Positions 30,171 to 40,945 of a DNA stretch of 41,225 nucleotides are shown in pieces; the stretch's first letter is position 1; each line of letters opens with the position of its first letter. The position numbers and the translations under genes were made by a program. This DNA is from Solobacterium sp. (lineage in GTDB: Bacteria > Bacillota_I > Bacilli_A > Erysipelotrichales > Erysipelotrichaceae), in assembly GCA_022486935.1 (NCBI GenBank), contig JAKVJO010000008.1:1-41225 (forward strand). Reading direction: 5' to 3'. Under the pieces are notes generated by a model. It had not been told where the DNA came from and ran no database searches. It saw nothing but the letters and a program-made list of their open reading frames with translations.

Positions 30171-30298
30171 TGCATGAAAAGTAGATTTTTGAAACGCCAA
30201 AATGCAGGAAAATGAGATTTTTAAATCGTAAAATTGCATGAAAATTAGATTTATAAATCGTAAAAATGCAGCAAAAGTAGATTTTTGAGTTTCAGCAC
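30171..30298. repeat. Four tandem copies of a 32-bp repeat
   Basis: Units start at 30171, 30203, 30235 and 30267, each exactly 32 bp. All begin TGCA and share the pattern AAAA-x-x-AGATTT. Units 2 and 3 also share AAATCGTAAAA; unit 4 diverges at its end. The block is very AT-rich and lies between the uvrA terminator and the decayed uvrA copy. Two looser matches (GCGTGAAAA at 30622 and 30642) occur nearer cas3. Confidence 0.85.
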
Positions 30299-30775: not shown

Positions 30776-33322
30776 ATGAATTGTGTGGAAATCCTGTGGG
30801 GTAAAAGCAATCCATATAAAAGTCTTTTACATCATATGATCGATTCAGGTGCTTGCGCTAATCAGCTGCTTATTTCAGGCTGCTGCAGTTATGTTCTTCC
30901 TCTAATTCATGATGTTGCCGGAACGGTTGATGCTGAATCGGTCGCACTGATTTCGTATCTTGCAGCAGCACACGACATTGGTAAGGCTCACCCGGATTTT
31001 CAACGGGCAGCAGAAATACAGGAAGTAAATCGATTGACTGATGAAAAGTGGATTCAAGGGCCAAAGAGAAACAATCGATTTCGCCACGAAAAGTATTCTG
31101 GAATGGTACTAAGAAGAATCTGGCAGGAGAAGAATGTATTTTCGGAAAAATATATAGACACATTTTCGCGAATAGAAGAGCTGCATCATCAAGGTAAAAC
31201 CGGAATTGCTGCAGAACCGTCTGCTGCATACGGAACAATATGGACTAATGCGCAGAATGAACTGGAAGACAGAATCAATCAATTGATACAGCCTCCGGAG
31301 ATGAAAAGCGAGTGTAAACATTGGGATGCGCTGGCTGCAGAGATAATGGGAATAATAATACTTTCTGACTGGATAGCATCAAGCGGTTCATTTGAAGATA
31401 ATGATGAAACAAAGGACGATGACTATTATCTGAGGTCGTTAGAAATCGCAAAAACCACAATACTAAAATATGGATTGAGCAAACCCATTTATGAATTCCA
31501 GCCAAAATGTTTCAGCGATGTATGGCCTGTAATCAATAGAGAAGAAATGCGACCAATTCAAACTTCATGCGAGGATGAAGGATCGGATCCAGCCCCGTTT
31601 TACATAATCGAAGCGCCGATGGGTGAGGGGAAGACAGAAGCGGCACTGTATCTTGCTTTGAATATGGTGAACAAATTTCATAAAGAAGGAATTTATGTTG
31701 CCCTTCCTACTTCAGCCACTAGCAATCAGATGAATGATCGAGTAAACAGTCTGTTTCATTATCTGCATATCCCTGAATCAAGGCTGCTCCACAGTACTGC
31801 ATGGGCAGTAGAAGGAATTGAAACTGTGTCTAGAACAACAGCTGAAGATGGGGATGGTCTTTCTGAGTGGTTGGCTCCTCTGAGAAGAGGTCTATTATGT
31901 GCCAATGCTGTAGGAACAGTAGATCAGGCAATGATGTCAGTTCTACTAGTGAAATATGGTGTTCTTCGTCTTCTTGGGCTTAGCCAGAAGGTGCTGATCA
32001 TAGATGAAATCCATGCATATGATGCTTATATGACAGATATCATTGAGCGTTTATTATCATGGTGCAAAGCGCTGAAGATTCCGACGATACTATTATCGGC
32101 AACACTGACAGCAGAAAAACGTAAACAGTTCATGAAAGCGTATGGAGCCGAACCGGAAGGTCTGAGTTCCGAGTATCCTCTTATATCCAGTATTCATAAT
32201 GATTGTGTAAAACAACAGCCAGTCAATACATATATGAATCGGGTATATCGATTTCGCTGTGAACCAATATTAGAGGATCTAAGTAGAACAGCTCAACTGG
32301 CCAAGGAGTTGGTATCCGAAGGTGGGTGCCTATGCTTAATGGCAGACACAGTTGTCGAAGCACAGAAGTTATATGAATTACTAAGAAATAACCTTTCTCC
32401 GGATATTAAACTCATACTCTTTCATAGCAGATTTCTATTGCGAAGAAGAATGGAAATTGAGCATGAATGTATCGAATTATTTGGGAAGGAAAGTGGAAGC
32501 AAGAGACCTGAAAAAGCGATTCTCGTATGTACTCAGGTTGTAGAACAATCATTAGATCTGGACTTTGACGGCATGGTAACGCAAATTGCACCAATTGATT
32601 TATTACTTCAAAGAGCCGGAAGAGTCCACAGACATGAGAATCACTGGCGTCCTGAGAAAATGAAGGACGCGGTAATTACTGTTCTTACAAAGGAGGATGG
32701 CAGATATGATCATTCAAAACCATCGTTCGTCTATGCGCCGTTCCTTTTGGATAAAACGCACGAATATTTGAGCCCGGAGAAAACAATACTTGTACCGGAG
32801 ATGATGAGGGAAGCAATTGAGGGAGTGTATTCAGTCAAGCCAAACCTTGAGCAAATGGAAGCATATGCAACAATGTCGTTCGACAATCAAATGATGAGGC
32901 AAAATGCCCGGGGTGGAGAATGGCCTAAGCCAAATGCAGATTACTTCTTTGCAACACAATCAATCCCTGATGGCTCTGACTGGTCAGAGGATCGATCTGA
33001 GTTTGTGGCAGAAGTACCAAAGACCAGAGAGGGAAACAGAACAACAAGAATTGCTATTTTGTCAGATGATATGTTTGAACAAATAAAGTCAAAACCATAT
33101 GATCGGCGGTTGGCGAAACAGGTACTTCTGGATTCCGTTTCAATAATTCTTCCCTCGAACGTAGACGTATCGGGAATCGAAACAGGGTGCGGAGTACTTA
33201 AGGGGTGCTTATTGCTACGCGCTGGGATTAATGGAAGAGTATTTATCAACGATATCGAAATTATTGACAATCCGGATATTGGAATATCTATTGGGAGGAT
33301 GAAACAACATGGCACACTTTGA
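30776..33322 (+). CDS. cas3: CRISPR-associated helicase-nuclease Cas3 (type I-E)
   Basis: 848 residues from ATG 30776; the track start adds 29 residues with no ribosome site. The HD nuclease domain has HHMIDSGACANQLL near residue 20 and AAAHDIGKAH with His66-Asp67. The helicase domain has Walker A EAPMGEGKTEAAL (Lys286), motif Ia LPTSATSNQM, DEIH at residue 410, SATLTAEKR, and QRAGRVHRH. All catalytic motifs look intact. Cas3 is recruited by Cascade to bound target DNA, then nicks and unwinds it. It overlaps cse1 by 14 nt and heads the operon. Confidence 0.96.
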   Translation: MNCVEILWGKSNPYKSLLHHMIDSGACANQLLISGCCSYVLPLIHDVAGTVDAESVALISYLAAAHDIGKAHPDFQRAAEIQEVNRLTDEKWIQGPKRNNRFRHEKYSGMVLRRIWQEKNVFSEKYIDTFSRIEELHHQGKTGIAAEPSAAYGTIWTNAQNELEDRINQLIQPPEMKSECKHWDALAAEIMGIIILSDWIASSGSFEDNDETKDDDYYLRSLEIAKTTILKYGLSKPIYEFQPKCFSDVWPVINREEMRPIQTSCEDEGSDPAPFYIIEAPMGEGKTEAALYLALNMVNKFHKEGIYVALPTSATSNQMNDRVNSLFHYLHIPESRLLHSTAWAVEGIETVSRTTAEDGDGLSEWLAPLRRGLLCANAVGTVDQAMMSVLLVKYGVLRLLGLSQKVLIIDEIHAYDAYMTDIIERLLSWCKALKIPTILLSATLTAEKRKQFMKAYGAEPEGLSSEYPLISSIHNDCVKQQPVNTYMNRVYRFRCEPILEDLSRTAQLAKELVSEGGCLCLMADTVVEAQKLYELLRNNLSPDIKLILFHSRFLLRRRMEIEHECIELFGKESGSKRPEKAILVCTQVVEQSLDLDFDGMVTQIAPIDLLLQRAGRVHRHENHWRPEKMKDAVITVLTKEDGRYDHSKPSFVYAPFLLDKTHEYLSPEKTILVPEMMREAIEGVYSVKPNLEQMEAYATMSFDNQMMRQNARGGEWPKPNADYFFATQSIPDGSDWSEDRSEFVAEVPKTREGNRTTRIAILSDDMFEQIKSKPYDRRLAKQVLLDSVSIILPSNVDVSGIETGCGVLKGCLLLRAGINGRVFINDIEIIDNPDIGISIGRMKQHGTL

Positions 33323-34808
33323 TGTATTAAATGATCCATGGATACCAGTTGAGTTGTCTGAAGGAACACATAAGGAATTTGGAATTTTGGCGACGTTAAA
33401 GCAAGCTGGGAAAATCAGGCGGATCAATTGCAGCTATCCACTGGAGAACACAGCAATCATACGGCTTCTTACGGCGTTCTTGATGGATGCGTATCAATTG
33501 GAAAATATAAATGACAGAAAAGAGTTGTATAAACAGGGTCATTTTGATGAAGGAATCCTTGATGGATACTCCGATAAATGTATTGCAGAAGGAACATCTT
33601 TTGATTTATTTGATCAGTCAGCTCCATTTATGCAATCAAGATATGATAGTAAATTAGACAGCGATAAAGAAACTGGTGTTTCCGCAATTGTGTTGAAATT
33701 TACCAGTGGGAATAACCATACCCATTTTGATCATCGTACGCAGGCGGAACTGCAACTATCATACGCTGAAGCATTGCGCTCTTTTTTGGCCGAATATACA
33801 TTTTGTCCTGCGGGTGGCGCAGGATATAGTGCTTCTGTAAATGGGATGCCATGTATCCTGTATGTTCCGGAAGATGAGGATCTGTTCAAGCAACTGGTAC
33901 TGTGCATGCTTGCAAAGTCTGAGATCGGAAATATACCTATGAATAATCCGCCGGTTGCGTGGAGAAACAAGAATCCAATTATTCCGGGATCGAAAACAGC
34001 GGAGATGTCTATCTTGGCGGCACTTACTTGGCAGCCACGAAGGATGACTCTGATTCCAGATGAAGATACTCAAACAATCAAGAATGTGTACTTCCAGCGA
34101 GGAGGATTCTTTAAAGAAAATGAGCTTTGGAGAGATCCATTTGCTTCATACAAATTAACCAAAGAAGGAAATTGGAAGGCGACATTTGCAAAAGAGGGAC
34201 GCGATTTGTGGCAGGATGTTGGAACATTGACTGCATCAAGTCCCAACGGTAATAGTAAACCGCCGCTGATTCTTAAACAGATGGGATCAATTAAACCGAA
34301 TGATGCAATTATCAGATCAAATGCAACAGCAATCATTGTGGTCAATAACGCAAAACTTGTATCAATTCAATTTGACGAATTGACAATACCTAAAGTGTTT
34401 ATTGAAAATCAGGAACTGGGCAATTGGCTTAAGTCGGATATTGGCTTGGCGGAAAGAGTGATTGAAAAAATCAGAAGTGACTATTTCAAACCAGATAAGA
34501 AGGAAATACTAGGAAAAGAAGTTTCTACCGAGATTGAAAGAGGATGCTATGAAGAACTGAGAAGAATTCTGTTTACTGAATATCTTCCGAAACTGGCTGA
34601 AGTTAATTTGAAAAGTTTTGACTGGCAACAACCAATGATCAATAAATGGGATGAGATTCTTCGGACTATTGTAAAACATGCTGCGGTCAAAGCAGAATCC
34701 AGAGCGGGAGCAACCACAGAAGATTTAATTAGCATTGTCTGTGCAAGTAATAAATGCAGAAATGACTGTGAAAGTATCATCAAGAAAGGAAGAGATAGCA
34801 ATGGATGA
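33309..34808 (+). CDS. cse1: Cascade large subunit Cse1/CasA
   Basis: 499 residues. The start FDVLNDPWIPVELSEGT is the Cse1 signature. Further conserved text is TFCPAGGAGYSASVNGMPCILYV and ILAALTWQPRRM, and the end is the helical bundle. Cse1 recognises the PAM next to the target and docks Cas3. It begins inside the cas3 3' end, and the cse2 start lies within its last codons, so these genes are translated as a block. Confidence 0.94.
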   Translation: MAHFDVLNDPWIPVELSEGTHKEFGILATLKQAGKIRRINCSYPLENTAIIRLLTAFLMDAYQLENINDRKELYKQGHFDEGILDGYSDKCIAEGTSFDLFDQSAPFMQSRYDSKLDSDKETGVSAIVLKFTSGNNHTHFDHRTQAELQLSYAEALRSFLAEYTFCPAGGAGYSASVNGMPCILYVPEDEDLFKQLVLCMLAKSEIGNIPMNNPPVAWRNKNPIIPGSKTAEMSILAALTWQPRRMTLIPDEDTQTIKNVYFQRGGFFKENELWRDPFASYKLTKEGNWKATFAKEGRDLWQDVGTLTASSPNGNSKPPLILKQMGSIKPNDAIIRSNATAIIVVNNAKLVSIQFDELTIPKVFIENQELGNWLKSDIGLAERVIEKIRSDYFKPDKKEILGKEVSTEIERGCYEELRRILFTEYLPKLAEVNLKSFDWQQPMINKWDEILRTIVKHAAVKAESRAGATTEDLISIVCASNKCRNDCESIIKKGRDSNG

Positions 34809-35292
34809 TCAAGAATTCAAAGTGTCTGAATTAACGAAGGCGGATCGCGCAACATTAAGGAGATGCGTCGGGAGAACGTTGGCAGAGTCACCTAAAGCAA
34901 TCAGCCTATTTTACTCATTAGTACCAAACGGACTTCCAAAATGGAAGGAAGAACGATTCTTCGCGGTTCTCTGTATTGCTGCCTTATGGGATGACGACAG
35001 AAGAGGTACTCCATTTGAATTGTGTATGAAAAGGATGAAAGACACATTTCCTACTATGGATAATCGAATGAAGAGTATTCTAAGTGTCCGATGGTCTGAC
35101 GAAGATGGATTCTTATGCGGGAAACTTGGTTCGTTAGCAAGAATGATGAAGAGTGGGAATTCATTGAAGCCGGATGCTGAGCAGCTATACACAGATTTGG
35201 TATATTGGAATTCAGAGAATCAAAGTGTCCAAAAGAATTGGGCAAGGAAGTATTACACATCCGAAAATAAATCGGAAGAAGGAGAAAACTGA
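34801..35292 (+). CDS. cse2: Cascade small subunit Cse2/CasB
   Basis: 163 residues from ATG 34801, with GGAAGAG upstream; the track start at 34735 is inside cse1. Family features are the helical fold with ADRATLRRCVGRTL, SLFYSLVP, ERFFAVLCIAALW and RMKSILSVRWSDE. Two copies of Cse2 normally line the belly of Cascade and hold the displaced strand. It overlaps cse1 by 8 nt and lies 2 nt before cas7. Confidence 0.92.
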   Translation: MDDQEFKVSELTKADRATLRRCVGRTLAESPKAISLFYSLVPNGLPKWKEERFFAVLCIAALWDDDRRGTPFELCMKRMKDTFPTMDNRMKSILSVRWSDEDGFLCGKLGSLARMMKSGNSLKPDAEQLYTDLVYWNSENQSVQKNWARKYYTSENKSEEGEN

Positions 35293-35294
35293 TC

Positions 35295-36425
35295 ATGCTT
35301 TACGAAATTCACATGCTTAAGAATTATCCGCCGGTTAATCTCAACAGAGATGATACAGGGTCACCAAAAACCTGTTATTTTGGAGGGACTCAGAGAGGCA
35401 GAATTTCCAGCCAGTGTTTAAAACGTTCTTGGAGAACATCTCCTCTATTTGTTGACGAGTTTAAAGAACTGGGGATTCGTACCAGGCATCTTCCTGATCT
35501 GATTGGAGATGAATTTGTAAAACGTGGATTGCCGGATGAAATGATTGAAGAAACAAAATTAATTCTTACTGGATTTGCAAACAAGGATTCCAAAACGAAC
35601 AAAGACAACATCACTTCGCAGATCGTATTCTATTCACCCAATGACATCAAAGAAATTGCCGATGAAATAGAAAAGAAATGGAAGTCTAATCCGGATATCA
35701 AAGACTTCAAAAAAACGAAGGCTAAAGACATTGAAGGAATAATGCAGGATAACAAGATCCGTCCAATCACAATGGATATTGCACTATTTGGAAGAATGGT
35801 CACTTCGAATGCTTTTGAAAATGTTGAATCGGCAACACAGGTTGCTAATGCAATATCTACACACACAGTCAATCAGGAATCTGATTACTACACAGCGATG
35901 GATGATATGCTTCACAACAGCAAATCGGAAGAAGCTGTAACTGCATTGATTGGCGAGACTGATTACAATGCATGTTGTTATTATCACTACATGTCAATCG
36001 ATACCGATCAGTTAAAAGACAATCTCAAAAACTCACCGGATGCCGAAAACATGATTGATGTAGTGCTGCCAACATTGATTGAAGTCATGGCATATACCAA
36101 TCCTTCAGGAAAGCAGAATTCTTTTGCTGGCAATATTCTTCCGGATATGATTTGTGTCGAAGTAAAGGCAAAGAAAATTCCTTGCTCATATGTAAATGCT
36201 TTTGCTGAACCAGTAAGATTTTCAGGCAACAAAGAACTCGTAAAAACCAGCGTCCAGAAGCTGTCCGATGAGATCAATTTGATTGACGAATCTTATGGGC
36301 TTGATATTAAGCACAGAGGATGGTTTGCCCCAAGATTCAATGATATTTCACCGAAGAAGGCAGAAGTCAAAAAGTCACTTAACGAATTGGTTACTTCATG
36401 TAAAGACTGGGCTAAGGAGGAGTAG
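35295..36425 (+). CDS. cas7: Cascade backbone subunit Cas7e/CasC
   Basis: 376 residues. NYPPVNLNRDDTGSPKTCYFGGTQRGRISSQCLKRSWR is the start typical of Cas7e (RAMP-like RRM fold), with ALFGRMV and VESATQVANAISTHTV in the middle. Six copies bind the crRNA spacer along the Cascade spine. Its stop lies 5 nt before cas5. Confidence 0.95.
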   Translation: MLYEIHMLKNYPPVNLNRDDTGSPKTCYFGGTQRGRISSQCLKRSWRTSPLFVDEFKELGIRTRHLPDLIGDEFVKRGLPDEMIEETKLILTGFANKDSKTNKDNITSQIVFYSPNDIKEIADEIEKKWKSNPDIKDFKKTKAKDIEGIMQDNKIRPITMDIALFGRMVTSNAFENVESATQVANAISTHTVNQESDYYTAMDDMLHNSKSEEAVTALIGETDYNACCYYHYMSIDTDQLKDNLKNSPDAENMIDVVLPTLIEVMAYTNPSGKQNSFAGNILPDMICVEVKAKKIPCSYVNAFAEPVRFSGNKELVKTSVQKLSDEINLIDESYGLDIKHRGWFAPRFNDISPKKAEVKKSLNELVTSCKDWAKEE

Positions 36426-36430
36426 TAATT

Positions 36431-37105
36431 ATGCTCTTGCTCCTTATGAGGCTAGAAGGGCCACTGCAAAGTTGGGGAGAACGATCTTCTTGGGATACTA
36501 GAGATACTGCATTGATGCCTACTAAATCTGGTGTTATCGGACTTGCTGCTGGATGCATGGGGTTGGCAAGAGGCGATGAAGGAATAGATAAGCTGTCTCA
36601 AGCTTTGCATATGGCAGTGCGCGCAGACAAGCCTGGAATAGTGATGACAGATTATCAGACTGTTCAGGGAATGCCGTATCTTAACTCCGCTAACGGAAAA
36701 CCAAGAACGGCCAATACAATTGTCTCTCCTCGTGATTATCTTCAGGACGCTTCATTTTTAGTTGCACTATATGGTGATTCAGAAACAATTGAAAATGTGG
36801 CAAAGGGGATCCGCGAGCCAAAGTGGGCTCCATACCTGGGAAGAAAAAATTGTGTTCCTGCAACACCGATAATACCTGTTCTCACAGAGAAATATGGGAC
36901 GGTTGAGAGCGCATTTTCTGAAATTAAATTGTTTCATGGCAAAGAAAGCGGTACCGCAGTCGAAGCAGAAATCGAAGAAACAAATGGTGAATCAGTCCGT
37001 TATGATAATTTAAAATTTGCACTAGATAGACAGTTCTGTACGCGAAATGTGAAAAGGATGATTTTGATTGTGGAAGGAGATAATGATGTATTTAACCTAT
37101 CTTGA
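36431..37105 (+). CDS. cas5: Cascade subunit Cas5e/CasD
   Basis: 224 residues. LLLLMRLEGPLQSWGERSSWDTRDTALMPTKSGVIGL is the classic Cas5e N-terminus. MTDYQTVQGMPYLNS and DASFLVALYGD also fit. It caps the 5' handle of the crRNA. AAGGAGGAG precedes the start. The last 20 bases overlap cas6. Confidence 0.95.
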   Translation: MLLLLMRLEGPLQSWGERSSWDTRDTALMPTKSGVIGLAAGCMGLARGDEGIDKLSQALHMAVRADKPGIVMTDYQTVQGMPYLNSANGKPRTANTIVSPRDYLQDASFLVALYGDSETIENVAKGIREPKWAPYLGRKNCVPATPIIPVLTEKYGTVESAFSEIKLFHGKESGTAVEAEIEETNGESVRYDNLKFALDRQFCTRNVKRMILIVEGDNDVFNLS

Positions 37106-37712
37106 AACAAGCGTTCTGAATCCCAGCGCTAGACAGTGTATAAAGAACTGTCATGACATGCATCGATCGTTAATGAAGGGTTTTCCGCAAGTCGATGATT
37201 CTAATGCCAGAGAAACTGCAAAAGTGCTATATCGAGTAATGATGAATGATTCGATCATCACGATTTACATTCAAAGTGAGGGCAAGCCGGATTTGTCCAA
37301 ATATGAGGTCTTAACTCCGACTGTCTGTAAGACACAGGATATTTCATCGCTCAAAGAGAAACTGATAACAGGAAGTACATGGAAAATCAATTTGTTGGCT
37401 GTGCCAAGTAAAAAAGTTCTGAGAGAAGGTAAAAACAGCAATCGAATCTTTTTAACCAAGGCGGATGATCGTAATGAATGGCTTAAAAGGCAGGGGGAAA
37501 AGGGTGGATGGAAGATTGATTCAATATATGAAAAAAGCGAACAGACATGTTGCGGTTGGAAAACAACTGACAAGTTCAGATTTAATACAATAGAGTTCTC
37601 CGGGATAATTGTTATCGAGAATCAGGAGAAATTTTGGAGAACGTTCCAAACAGGTGTTGGTCCAGAAAAAGCATATGGTTGTGGAATGTTCATAATCACG
37701 AATATTCAATAA
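37086..37712 (+). CDS. cas6: crRNA-processing endonuclease Cas6e/CasE
   Basis: 208 residues. I prefer ATG 37086, which sits 6 nt after AAGGAG; ATG 37083 is too close. NPSARQCIKNCHDMHRSLMKGFP holds the likely catalytic His. The glycine-rich C-terminal loop is GVGPEKAYGCGMF. It cuts at the 3' base of the repeat hairpin (CCCCAT/ATGGGG) and stays bound to the product. It overlaps cas5 and ends 2 nt before cas1. Confidence 0.94.
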   Translation: MYLTYLETSVLNPSARQCIKNCHDMHRSLMKGFPQVDDSNARETAKVLYRVMMNDSIITIYIQSEGKPDLSKYEVLTPTVCKTQDISSLKEKLITGSTWKINLLAVPSKKVLREGKNSNRIFLTKADDRNEWLKRQGEKGGWKIDSIYEKSEQTCCGWKTTDKFRFNTIEFSGIIVIENQEKFWRTFQTGVGPEKAYGCGMFIITNIQ

Positions 37713-37714
37713 TT

Positions 37715-38638
37715 ATGCCAAAAGACCTACATATTCTCCCAAAACTGAGAGACAGTCTGACATTTCTCTATATAGAGCATTGCACAATTGAACAATTAAA
37801 TCTTTCAATAGTAATGATCACAAAGTCTGGACAAACGCCCATTCCTATAGCAGCCATGACCGTACTGATGATTGGCCCTGGTGTCAGCATCACTCATGCG
37901 GCAATTAAAGTGATCAATGATTGTGGATGCATGGCAGTTTGGTGCGGAGAGAACTGCGCACGCTTCTATGCGTTTGGAGCTGGAGAAACGAGAAGCAGTC
38001 GGAACCTGTTGATTCAAGCGTGCTTATGCATGGATAAAACGAAACATCTCGAAGTTGCAAAAAGAATGTACCTGAGAAGATTTCCTGATATGGATTGTGA
38101 AGGAATGAATATTCAGCAACTTCGAGGGTTGGAAGGAATCCGCGTAAGGGAAGCATATAAGCTGGCTTCCAAGAACAGTGGAATTCCCTGGAACGGAAGA
38201 TCGTATAAACAAACTGAATGGGATGCATCTGATCCGGTCAATCGTGCGCTGTCAACTGCTAACGCAATTCTCTATAGTGTCTGCCAGGCAGCTGTAATAT
38301 CACTTGGATACTCAACAGGGCTTGGATTCATTCATACCGGGAAAATGCTTTCATTTATTTACGATGTTGCTGATCTATACAAAGCTGAAACGACAATACC
38401 CGTTGCGTTTTCGGCTGTCAAAAACAATCCCAATGATATTGAGCATCAAGTAAGGAGCGAATGTCGTCAGGCATTCTATTCCAGTAAAATTCTAAAAAGG
38501 ATACCAGAAGATCTGGCTTGGGTATTTGATGTTGACATATCCACAGACGAATTCGATGTTTCCGGTGCAGGCGAACTATGGAATGATCAAGGAGACACAA
38601 TTCAGGGCGGAACAAATTATGGGGTTAATAGTAAATGA
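37715..38638 (+). CDS. cas1: Spacer integrase Cas1e
   Basis: 307 residues from ATG 37715 (MPKDLHILPKLRDSLTFLYIE); the track start at 37634 runs inside cas6. GLEGIRVREAYKLAS carries the first metal-binding Glu, and GLGFIHTGKMLSFIYDVADLYK supplies the His and Asp of the active site. NGRSYKQTEWDASDPVN fits the I-E subtype. With Cas2 it inserts new spacers next to the leader. It has no strong ribosome site and is probably coupled to cas6. Confidence 0.95.
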   Translation: MPKDLHILPKLRDSLTFLYIEHCTIEQLNLSIVMITKSGQTPIPIAAMTVLMIGPGVSITHAAIKVINDCGCMAVWCGENCARFYAFGAGETRSSRNLLIQACLCMDKTKHLEVAKRMYLRRFPDMDCEGMNIQQLRGLEGIRVREAYKLASKNSGIPWNGRSYKQTEWDASDPVNRALSTANAILYSVCQAAVISLGYSTGLGFIHTGKMLSFIYDVADLYKAETTIPVAFSAVKNNPNDIEHQVRSECRQAFYSSKILKRIPEDLAWVFDVDISTDEFDVSGAGELWNDQGDTIQGGTNYGVNSK

Positions 38639-38907
38639 CAATAATTGTGATGGATAATGTTTCGACATCTACAAGAGGCGAATGTACCAAGTATCTGCTG
38701 GAAGTCAAAACCGGAGTATTTGTAGGAAATATCACTAGTGTTGTTCGTGAATTGGTGTGGCAAAAGATTCAACGAAATTGTGCTAATGGAGGCGCGATCT
38801 TGATATATTCCATGGCAAATGAACAGGGCTATGAATTGGAGATGTTTGGAGATCCTCGAAAAAAGGTAATAGACTTAGATGGCATCAAATTGATACAGAC
38901 CGCATAA
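38635..38907 (+). CDS. cas2: Cas2e, structural partner of Cas1
   Basis: 90 residues, overlapping cas1 by 4 nt. TIIVMDNVSTSTRGECTKYLLEVKTGVFVGNIT and ILIYSMANEQGYELEMFGDPR are diagnostic of the type I-E form. Two Cas2 dimerise and hold the pre-spacer between Cas1 pairs. The first CRISPR repeat begins only 19 nt after the stop codon. Confidence 0.95.
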   Translation: MTIIVMDNVSTSTRGECTKYLLEVKTGVFVGNITSVVRELVWQKIQRNCANGGAILIYSMANEQGYELEMFGDPRKKVIDLDGIKLIQTA

Positions 38908-38926
38908 ATATCAACAATACGGAAGT

Positions 38927-40945
38927 GTATGCCCCATGTATATGGGGGTGAACCGTATGCCCCATGTATATGGGGGTGAACCGAAAAGTATGCCCCATGT
39001 ATATGGGGGTGAACCGAACTGAACGGCAGGGAAGTCAAGTTCACTGCCAGTATGCCCCATGTATATGGGGGTGAACCGGTAATGACCATTGTCTCCAGTA
39101 TCGGTCCGGTCGTATGCCCCATGTATATGGGGGTGAACCGTATATTGCTTTCTGACGGAGATCCGGGATTATCGTATGCCCCATGTATATGGGGGTGAAC
39201 CGTTAGTCATCCTGACTGAATATCCCTGACGGATGAGTATGCCCCATGTATATGGGGGTGAACCGCGAAATCATTAAACAGTACGAAATGGATGTTTCGT
39301 ATGCCCCATGTATATGGGGGTGAACCGTCATACGACTATATAAATTTGCCAGTGTTTGCGTATGCCCCATGTATATGGGGGTGAACCGAGCATCATGCAG
39401 GACAGGAAGGTGTGCTACTTCGTATGCCCCATGTATATGGGGGTGAACCGGTAGAGAATGCAATGTTCAAAGCGGCTTGCGGAGTATGCCCCATGTATAT
39501 GGGGGTGAACCGCTGATTGGAGAGAAAAGAAGGCGGCACGGAGAAGTATGCCCCATGTATATGGGGGTGAACCGGTTGCCAACGGCACAATCGGCAAGGT
39601 CATCGAAGACGTATGCCCCATGTATATGGGGGTGAACCGCATCAGGGACCCAGTGATTGCTTCAGGAATAAGTATGCCCCATGTATATGGGGGTGAACCG
39701 GACTATGTTATTGACCATTATGCAGATGGTACGCGTATGCCCCATGTATATGGGGGTGAACCGAAAAATGGTGAGTACCCCCCCGCCAAAAATCGTATGC
39801 CCCATGTATATGGGGGTGAACCGATAACGGGATGTACAAACTGTGGTCGTACATCGTATGCCCCATGTATATGGGGGTGAACCGCGTACGCAGTCATCAA
39901 AGAAGAACTGGAAGAAGTATGCCCCATGTATATGGGGGTGAACCGGTGAACAGACTAGAGGTATGATTCAGGCAGAAATCGTATGCCCCATGTATATGGG
40001 GGTGAACCGTGAATTTGGTCAGATCAGGGCAATGGAAGAGAACGTATGCCCCATGTATATGGGGGTGAACCGTAACCGGCATTGATGCAAGCAAGTTCAT
40101 ACCAGTATGCCCCATGTATATGGGGGTGAACCGATTAGAGAATGGTGAGATTGATCCACCATTATCGTATGCCCCATGTATATGGGGGTGAACCGAGGAG
40201 CATGGAGGATCTATATGCCTCATATCACGTATGCCCCATGTATATGGGGGTGAACCGAATACCAGGAGCCGCATCACTGGGAGGATTGGGAGTATGCCCC
40301 ATGTATATGGGGGTGAACCGACAAGACGGATCCACGATCATCTGATACGTCTCGTATGCCCCATGTATATGGGGGTGAACCGCATATCTGCGCTAGATTA
40401 TTTCGCTTGGTATCAGTATGCCCCATGTATATGGGGGTGAACCGGCGAAGCCGTACTGGCTGAACTCAGACGGATCCGTATGCCCCATGTATATGGGGGT
40501 GAACCGTAAACTCCGTCATGCTGACAGAGTTCAGTTGAGCGTATGCCCCATGTATATGGGGTTGAACCGATCATCTAAATCAGTGTCGTTTCCATTCTGC
40601 TGCGTATGCCCCATGTATATGGGGGTGAACCGAACAGCCAAACATGTGTATTCAGAACTAAAGATGTATGCCCCATGTATATGGGGGTGAACCGTGGACA
40701 GCATTAATCGCTTTACCGGCATGCGCGTATGCCCCATGTATATGGGGGTGAACCGATCATGTCTGCATACGCAGAACAGCATCATAAAGTATGCCCCATG
40801 TATATGGGGGGGGTGAACCGCATCTTCAGAAAGAAGATGCTTGCATGAGCAACGTATGCCTCATGTATATGGGGGTGAACCGAGGCACGCAAGGAAGTAA
40901 TCGACGCGGACCAGCGTATGCCCCATGTATATGGGGGGTGAACCG
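38927..40945 (+). CRISPR. Type I-E CRISPR array, 34 repeats
   Basis: The 29-nt repeat begins GTATGCCCC and ends GTGAACCG, with a CCCCAT/ATGGGG stem and GTAT loop, as expected for Cas6e. I count 34 repeats from 38927 to 40945. There are 31 true spacers of 31-36 nt, mostly 33. Repeats 1 and 2 share one G with no spacer, and repeats 2 and 3 are separated by only AAAA. Repeats 28 and 32-34 are variant: G to T in 28, three extra G in 32, C to T in 33, one extra G in 34. Variation at the right end marks it as the trailer; the array reads in the same direction as the cas genes. Confidence 0.98.

Follow-up and report, generated by a model that had tools for sequence, protein, structure and literature searches.

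Two adjacent repeat junctions that hold little or no spacer lie at the leader end of a type I-E CRISPR array in a Solobacterium sp. genome. Most likely they are a real trace of spacer acquisition that failed or was later undone, although in this single genome the chance that they reflect misassembly is substantial. The window, meaning the whole stretch of 41,225 nucleotides that we analyzed, carries the array at 38927-40945, starting 19 bp 3′ of the cas2 stop codon (Table 1). The repeat, GTATGCCCCATGTATATGGGGGTGAACCG, occurs with 0 mismatches at 38927-38955, 38955-38983 and 38988-39016, and all three copies adjoin the leader. A type I-E repeat is usually counted as 28 nt, with the 29th base derived from the spacer, and we computed all insert lengths with a 28-nt repeat. 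Measured this way, the first and second repeats (R1 and R2) are separated by a 0-nt insert, making them an exact 28-bp tandem duplication with one G common to both 29-nt copies, and R2 and R3 are separated by the 5-nt insert GAAAA, which becomes AAAA if the repeat is taken as 29 nt. From the leader outward, insert lengths run 0, 5 and then 32-37 nt (mode 34) for the remaining 31, in an array of 34 repeats. The original prediction of three perfect repeats with a shared G and an AAAA gap holds to the base. Its placement of these repeats at the leader end was also right, as the cas2 stop falls at 38907 and R28, R32, R33 and R34, which carry mutations, are at the opposite end. The changes in these trailer-end repeats (40541-40945) are +3 G in R32, +1 G in R34, G to T in R28 and C to T in R33. 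The assembly yielded no second array with this repeat.

Table 1. Positions of the cas genes, leader gap and array elements in the window.
Feature	Position	Strand	Description
cas3, cse1, cse2, cas7e, cas5e, cas6e	30776..37712	+	All open; match type I-E or Cas3 models
cas1e	37715..38638	+	Intact; E140, H207, D217, D220 conserved
cas2e	38635..38907	+	Intact; 90 aa, too short for a fused exonuclease domain
cas2 stop to repeat 1	38908..38926	+	19-bp gap; similarly short in relatives
Repeat 1	38927..38954	+	28-nt core; perfect, leader-adjacent
Repeat 2	38955..38982	+	28-nt core; abuts repeat 1
GAAAA insert	38983..38987	+	Between repeats 2 and 3; 5′ G and 3′ A as in full-length spacers
Repeat 3	38988..39015	+	28-nt core; followed by first full-length spacer (34 nt)
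Remaining array	39016..40945	+	Repeats 4-34; 31 inserts of full length (32-37 nt); repeats diverge toward the trailer

For comparison we took 24 further arrays of type I-E or I-E-like character: 21 plasmid-borne arrays with named records, plus three that belong to whole genomes of this class. No interval below 16 nt occurs among the 660 in these 24 arrays, and the lone 16-nt interval belongs to a Streptomyces array, at its trailer end. Since 2 of 33 intervals are this short here against 0 of 660 in the comparison arrays (hypergeometric P about 0.002), chance does not account for them, and the two occupy positions 1 and 2 of 33 (P = 1/528 under random placement). Among the I-E arrays compared, a spacerless junction is present only here. 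Of 5,426 complete E. coli genomes, 4,218 contain the canonical repeat, at 38,609 sites in all, which is too low a count, and neither 32-mer variant of the exact spacerless junction had a match in the 5,426 genomes, a search that covers exact canonical fusions only and for which a 32-nt lacZ query, used as positive control, returned 2,904 records. The fused junction of our array had no match in IMG/VR either. Spacerless junctions are rare, but not unprecedented. The one clear precedent in the literature is CRISPR1 of S. enterica Typhi, where adjacent overlapping repeats, three in CT18 and two in Ty2, were attributed to recent spacer loss (Touchon & Rocha 2010, PMC2886076). Both arrays are type I-E and have two or three overlapping repeats without a spacer, rare amid many normal spacers; the S. 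Typhi pattern of at least two overlapping repeats with no spacer is found here in R1 and R2, which share one G. Unlike the S. Typhi cases, which come from finished isolate genomes and are read as spacer loss, ours is in a metagenome-assembled genome (MAG), both anomalies are leader-adjacent, and one of them retains a 5-nt remnant.

The three tandem repeats could in principle be a maintained functional element, such as a decoy for Cas6 or Cascade or a regulatory RNA, and none of the three has a mismatch and transcription would reach them first. However, perfect sequence is expected from newness alone, and the structure is missing in the nearest relative, a genome of the same genus (G051), and in all 24 comparison arrays. 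We consider such a role very improbable.

The remaining CRISPR-Cas system appears competent. A full cas set lies in one operon, an array of 28/29-nt palindromic repeats sits beside cas2, and the Cas1 catalytic residues are in place, as expected of type I-E. Scores exceeded the NCBIfam cut-offs for cse1, cse2, cas7e, cas5e, cas6e, cas1e, cas2e and the Cas3 core and HD domain models, and the Cas1 active-site residues E140, H207, D217 and D220 are invariant in the alignment. A broken Cas1 or Cas2 is ruled out as the cause, as both genes are intact. Most comparators have inserts of 33 nt; the 31 of 33 inserts at 32-37 nt here are looser in length. In gene order (cas3-cse1-cse2-cas7-cas5-cas6-cas1-cas2-array), repeat type and the G at repeat position 29, the system most resembles that of G051, followed by the type I-E systems of Thermus, Synechococcus and Acaryochloris plasmids. 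Of 70 genomes of the genus, just 3 have a related Cas1e at E <= 1e-20; one of these is the genome of the window, and the other two are distant (G051 at 56-57% identity and G034 at 41%), so the system is patchy in the genus and was probably acquired horizontally. A genome scan with Cas1 gave only one weak, distant match. Two side observations concern the operon and its relatives. Read by eye, the Cas2 frame in the relatives G264 and G361 runs on into an apparent DEDDh (DnaQ-like) exonuclease domain (L020, about 1000-1889; L021, about 1010-1922), an extension that is absent from Cas2 of the window and of G051. About 500 bp upstream of cas3 is an AT-rich 32-bp direct repeat, TGCAGGAAAAGTAGATTTTTAAATCGTAAAAA, in 3.6 copies (30171-30286).

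Because the gap between cas2 and R1 is only 19 bp, the leader must reach into the 3′ end of cas2. The same gap is 16 bp in G051, where the array beyond it has ordinary 33-nt inserts and no spacerless junction, and 20-21 bp in the Synechococcus and Acaryochloris plasmid systems. A short leader is thus common to the window, G051 and the cyanobacterial systems and, as far as these sequences indicate, is normal for the group. It had been suggested that a rearrangement removed the leader. This is unsupported, since relatives share an equally short gap (16-21 bp), which argues that the leader was neither deleted nor rearranged. We also considered whether GAAAA derives from the leader end (ACGGAAGT compared with ACCGAAAA), but a match at 5 of 8 positions is unconvincing.

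The Cas1-Cas2 ruler is generally held to determine spacer length. In the full-length spacers (39016-40917), the 5′ base is G in 31 of 31 and the 3′ base is C or A in 30 of 31 (binomial P about 1.5e-8). The GAAAA insert fits both rules, a fit with a chance of about 1/8. Repeat position 29 differs among relatives: G051 has a single T there, and in G264 T is the usual base. Cas1 of E. coli has a strong preference for an incoming 3′ end of A or C (PMC4574026), which the full-length spacers here follow strikingly. The 3′ C/A bias and loose length recur in two plasmid I-E arrays, Synechococcus L035 (11 of 12) and Acaryochloris L036 (27 of 32), both with spacers of 32-35 nt, and these two and the window all have a leader of roughly 20 bp and the leader end GGAAGT. 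Most other I-E arrays that we examined are fixed at 33 nt and are without the bias, and there is possibly a subgroup of I-E systems in which spacer size depends more on end sequence than on the ruler. As for targets, no protospacers that could reveal the PAM were found in the phage collection, nor in IMG/VR for the six spacers searched; three IMG/VR contigs with a shared 20-mer had just 23-24 matching bases over 34-37 aligned positions. A plasmid search gave weak matches (60-80% identity) scattered over many array units, the best being another I-E array.

We tentatively favor the interpretation that the junctions are genuine and rare, and that they arose when spacer acquisition went wrong in a type I-E system that is normal in other respects. 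We infer the following order of molecular events. Cas1-Cas2 would open the leader-proximal repeat at both borders with a 28-nt stagger, and the single-stranded repeat would be copied by gap filling. If the incoming spacer were lost before or during joining, perhaps through Cas1 running the reaction backwards, the exact 28-bp duplication of R1 and R2 would result; the R2-R3 junction would be an older event that kept the remnant GAAAA. Cas1 of E. coli does catalyze disintegration in vitro (PMC4574026). Failed integration is favored because the zero-insert junction sits exactly at the 28-nt repeat border, where Cas1 attacks, because both anomalies are the two newest positions, because the Cas1 catalytic residues are conserved with Cas1e and Cas2e above curated cut-offs, and because the leader gap resembles that of relatives, so that the leader is not rearranged. 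It is weakly favored as well by GAAAA, which shares the ends of full-length spacers and the 3′ A/C preference of E. coli Cas1. Abortive Cas1-Cas2 integration had been among the causes first proposed, and the junction at the Cas1-cut repeat border, the leader-adjacent position and the intact cas1 and cas2 fit it; the spacer may have been lost during integration or later. Several points count against failed integration: GAAAA would fit both end rules by chance about one time in eight, the S. Typhi adjacent repeats were read as spacer loss and not as failed gain (PMC2886076), and two successive events with no later normal spacer require either that the system became impaired recently or that one complex event produced both. 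We found no published experiment showing a spacer-free repeat duplication.

Precise later loss of spacers is the main biological rival to failed integration. Here, normal spacers would have been gained and then excised with near-exact ends while the repeats on either side stayed in place, perhaps through recombination at a single shared G or under selection against self-targeting new spacers. The S. Typhi attribution supports this route (PMC2886076), as does the 1-bp G common to both borders that the R1/R2 junction retains. CRISPR1 was reported as 386 bp with 5 spacers in CT18 and 421 bp with 6 spacers in Ty2 (Fabre et al., PMC3356390), and by our own reading of these figures the 35-bp difference is about one spacer without its repeat, in agreement with spacer loss. 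However, known array deletions take out whole spacer-repeat units (PMC8047081), and two repeat-sparing deletions exactly at the two newest positions would be improbable unless selection or Cas1 acts there. On balance, we regard later loss as rather unlikely, but a serious contender. Replication misalignment, the usual explanation for array rearrangement, deletes or duplicates spacer-repeat units (reviewed in PMC8047081). It likewise changes spacer number, but moves units of about 61 bp, whereas here just the 28-bp repeat is repeated. Slippage between repeats, which the original prediction had listed, moves whole units and alone gives no 28-bp period (PMC8047081); ordinary inter-repeat slippage was ruled out on this ground.

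The leader end is the most strain-variable part of an array within a species, and a misassembly would be expected to fall there for that reason. A metagenome assembler could have joined or collapsed paths at the leader end, and the genome is a MAG, 62% complete and in 80 contigs. Four of its contigs, ours among them (C8, C20, C27 and C42), end within the same repeated element, with 66-95 bp in common with the end of ours, a short-read pattern. The end of our contig (41138-41225) lies within this multi-copy element, common to C20, C27 and C42 of the same assembly. Against an artefact, we reason that no k-mer (k >= 21) across the junction of GTGAACCG and TATGCCCC can be derived from normal repeat-spacer units, so a de Bruijn assembler needs reads that contain it, and that the fused stretch of 90 bp fits one 150-bp read. 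The remaining 31 intervals of the array were assembled normally, and comparable structures are reported in finished Salmonella genomes. We give an artefact the same weight as later spacer loss, rather unlikely but a serious contender.

If the fused units are transcribed and cut by Cas6e, the predicted RNAs, about 28 and 33 nt long, would carry hardly any guide or none and be useless for immunity. Handle-only crRNAs from repeats 1-3, as originally suggested, are a reasonable prediction, and the 31 full-length spacers should still be working. If the junctions are an artefact, they advise caution about the leader ends of metagenome-assembled arrays. If they are real, they would be readable end products of failed CRISPR adaptation, of which we found no experimental description in the literature. 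With still more reserve than we attach to faulty acquisition itself, we speculate that they are natural fossils of 0-nt and 5-nt-insert repeat duplication by Cas1-Cas2, and that repeat copying may be completed without a captured spacer. Counts of such leader-end junctions in long-read genomes would then offer an easy way to gauge the rate at which adaptation fails.
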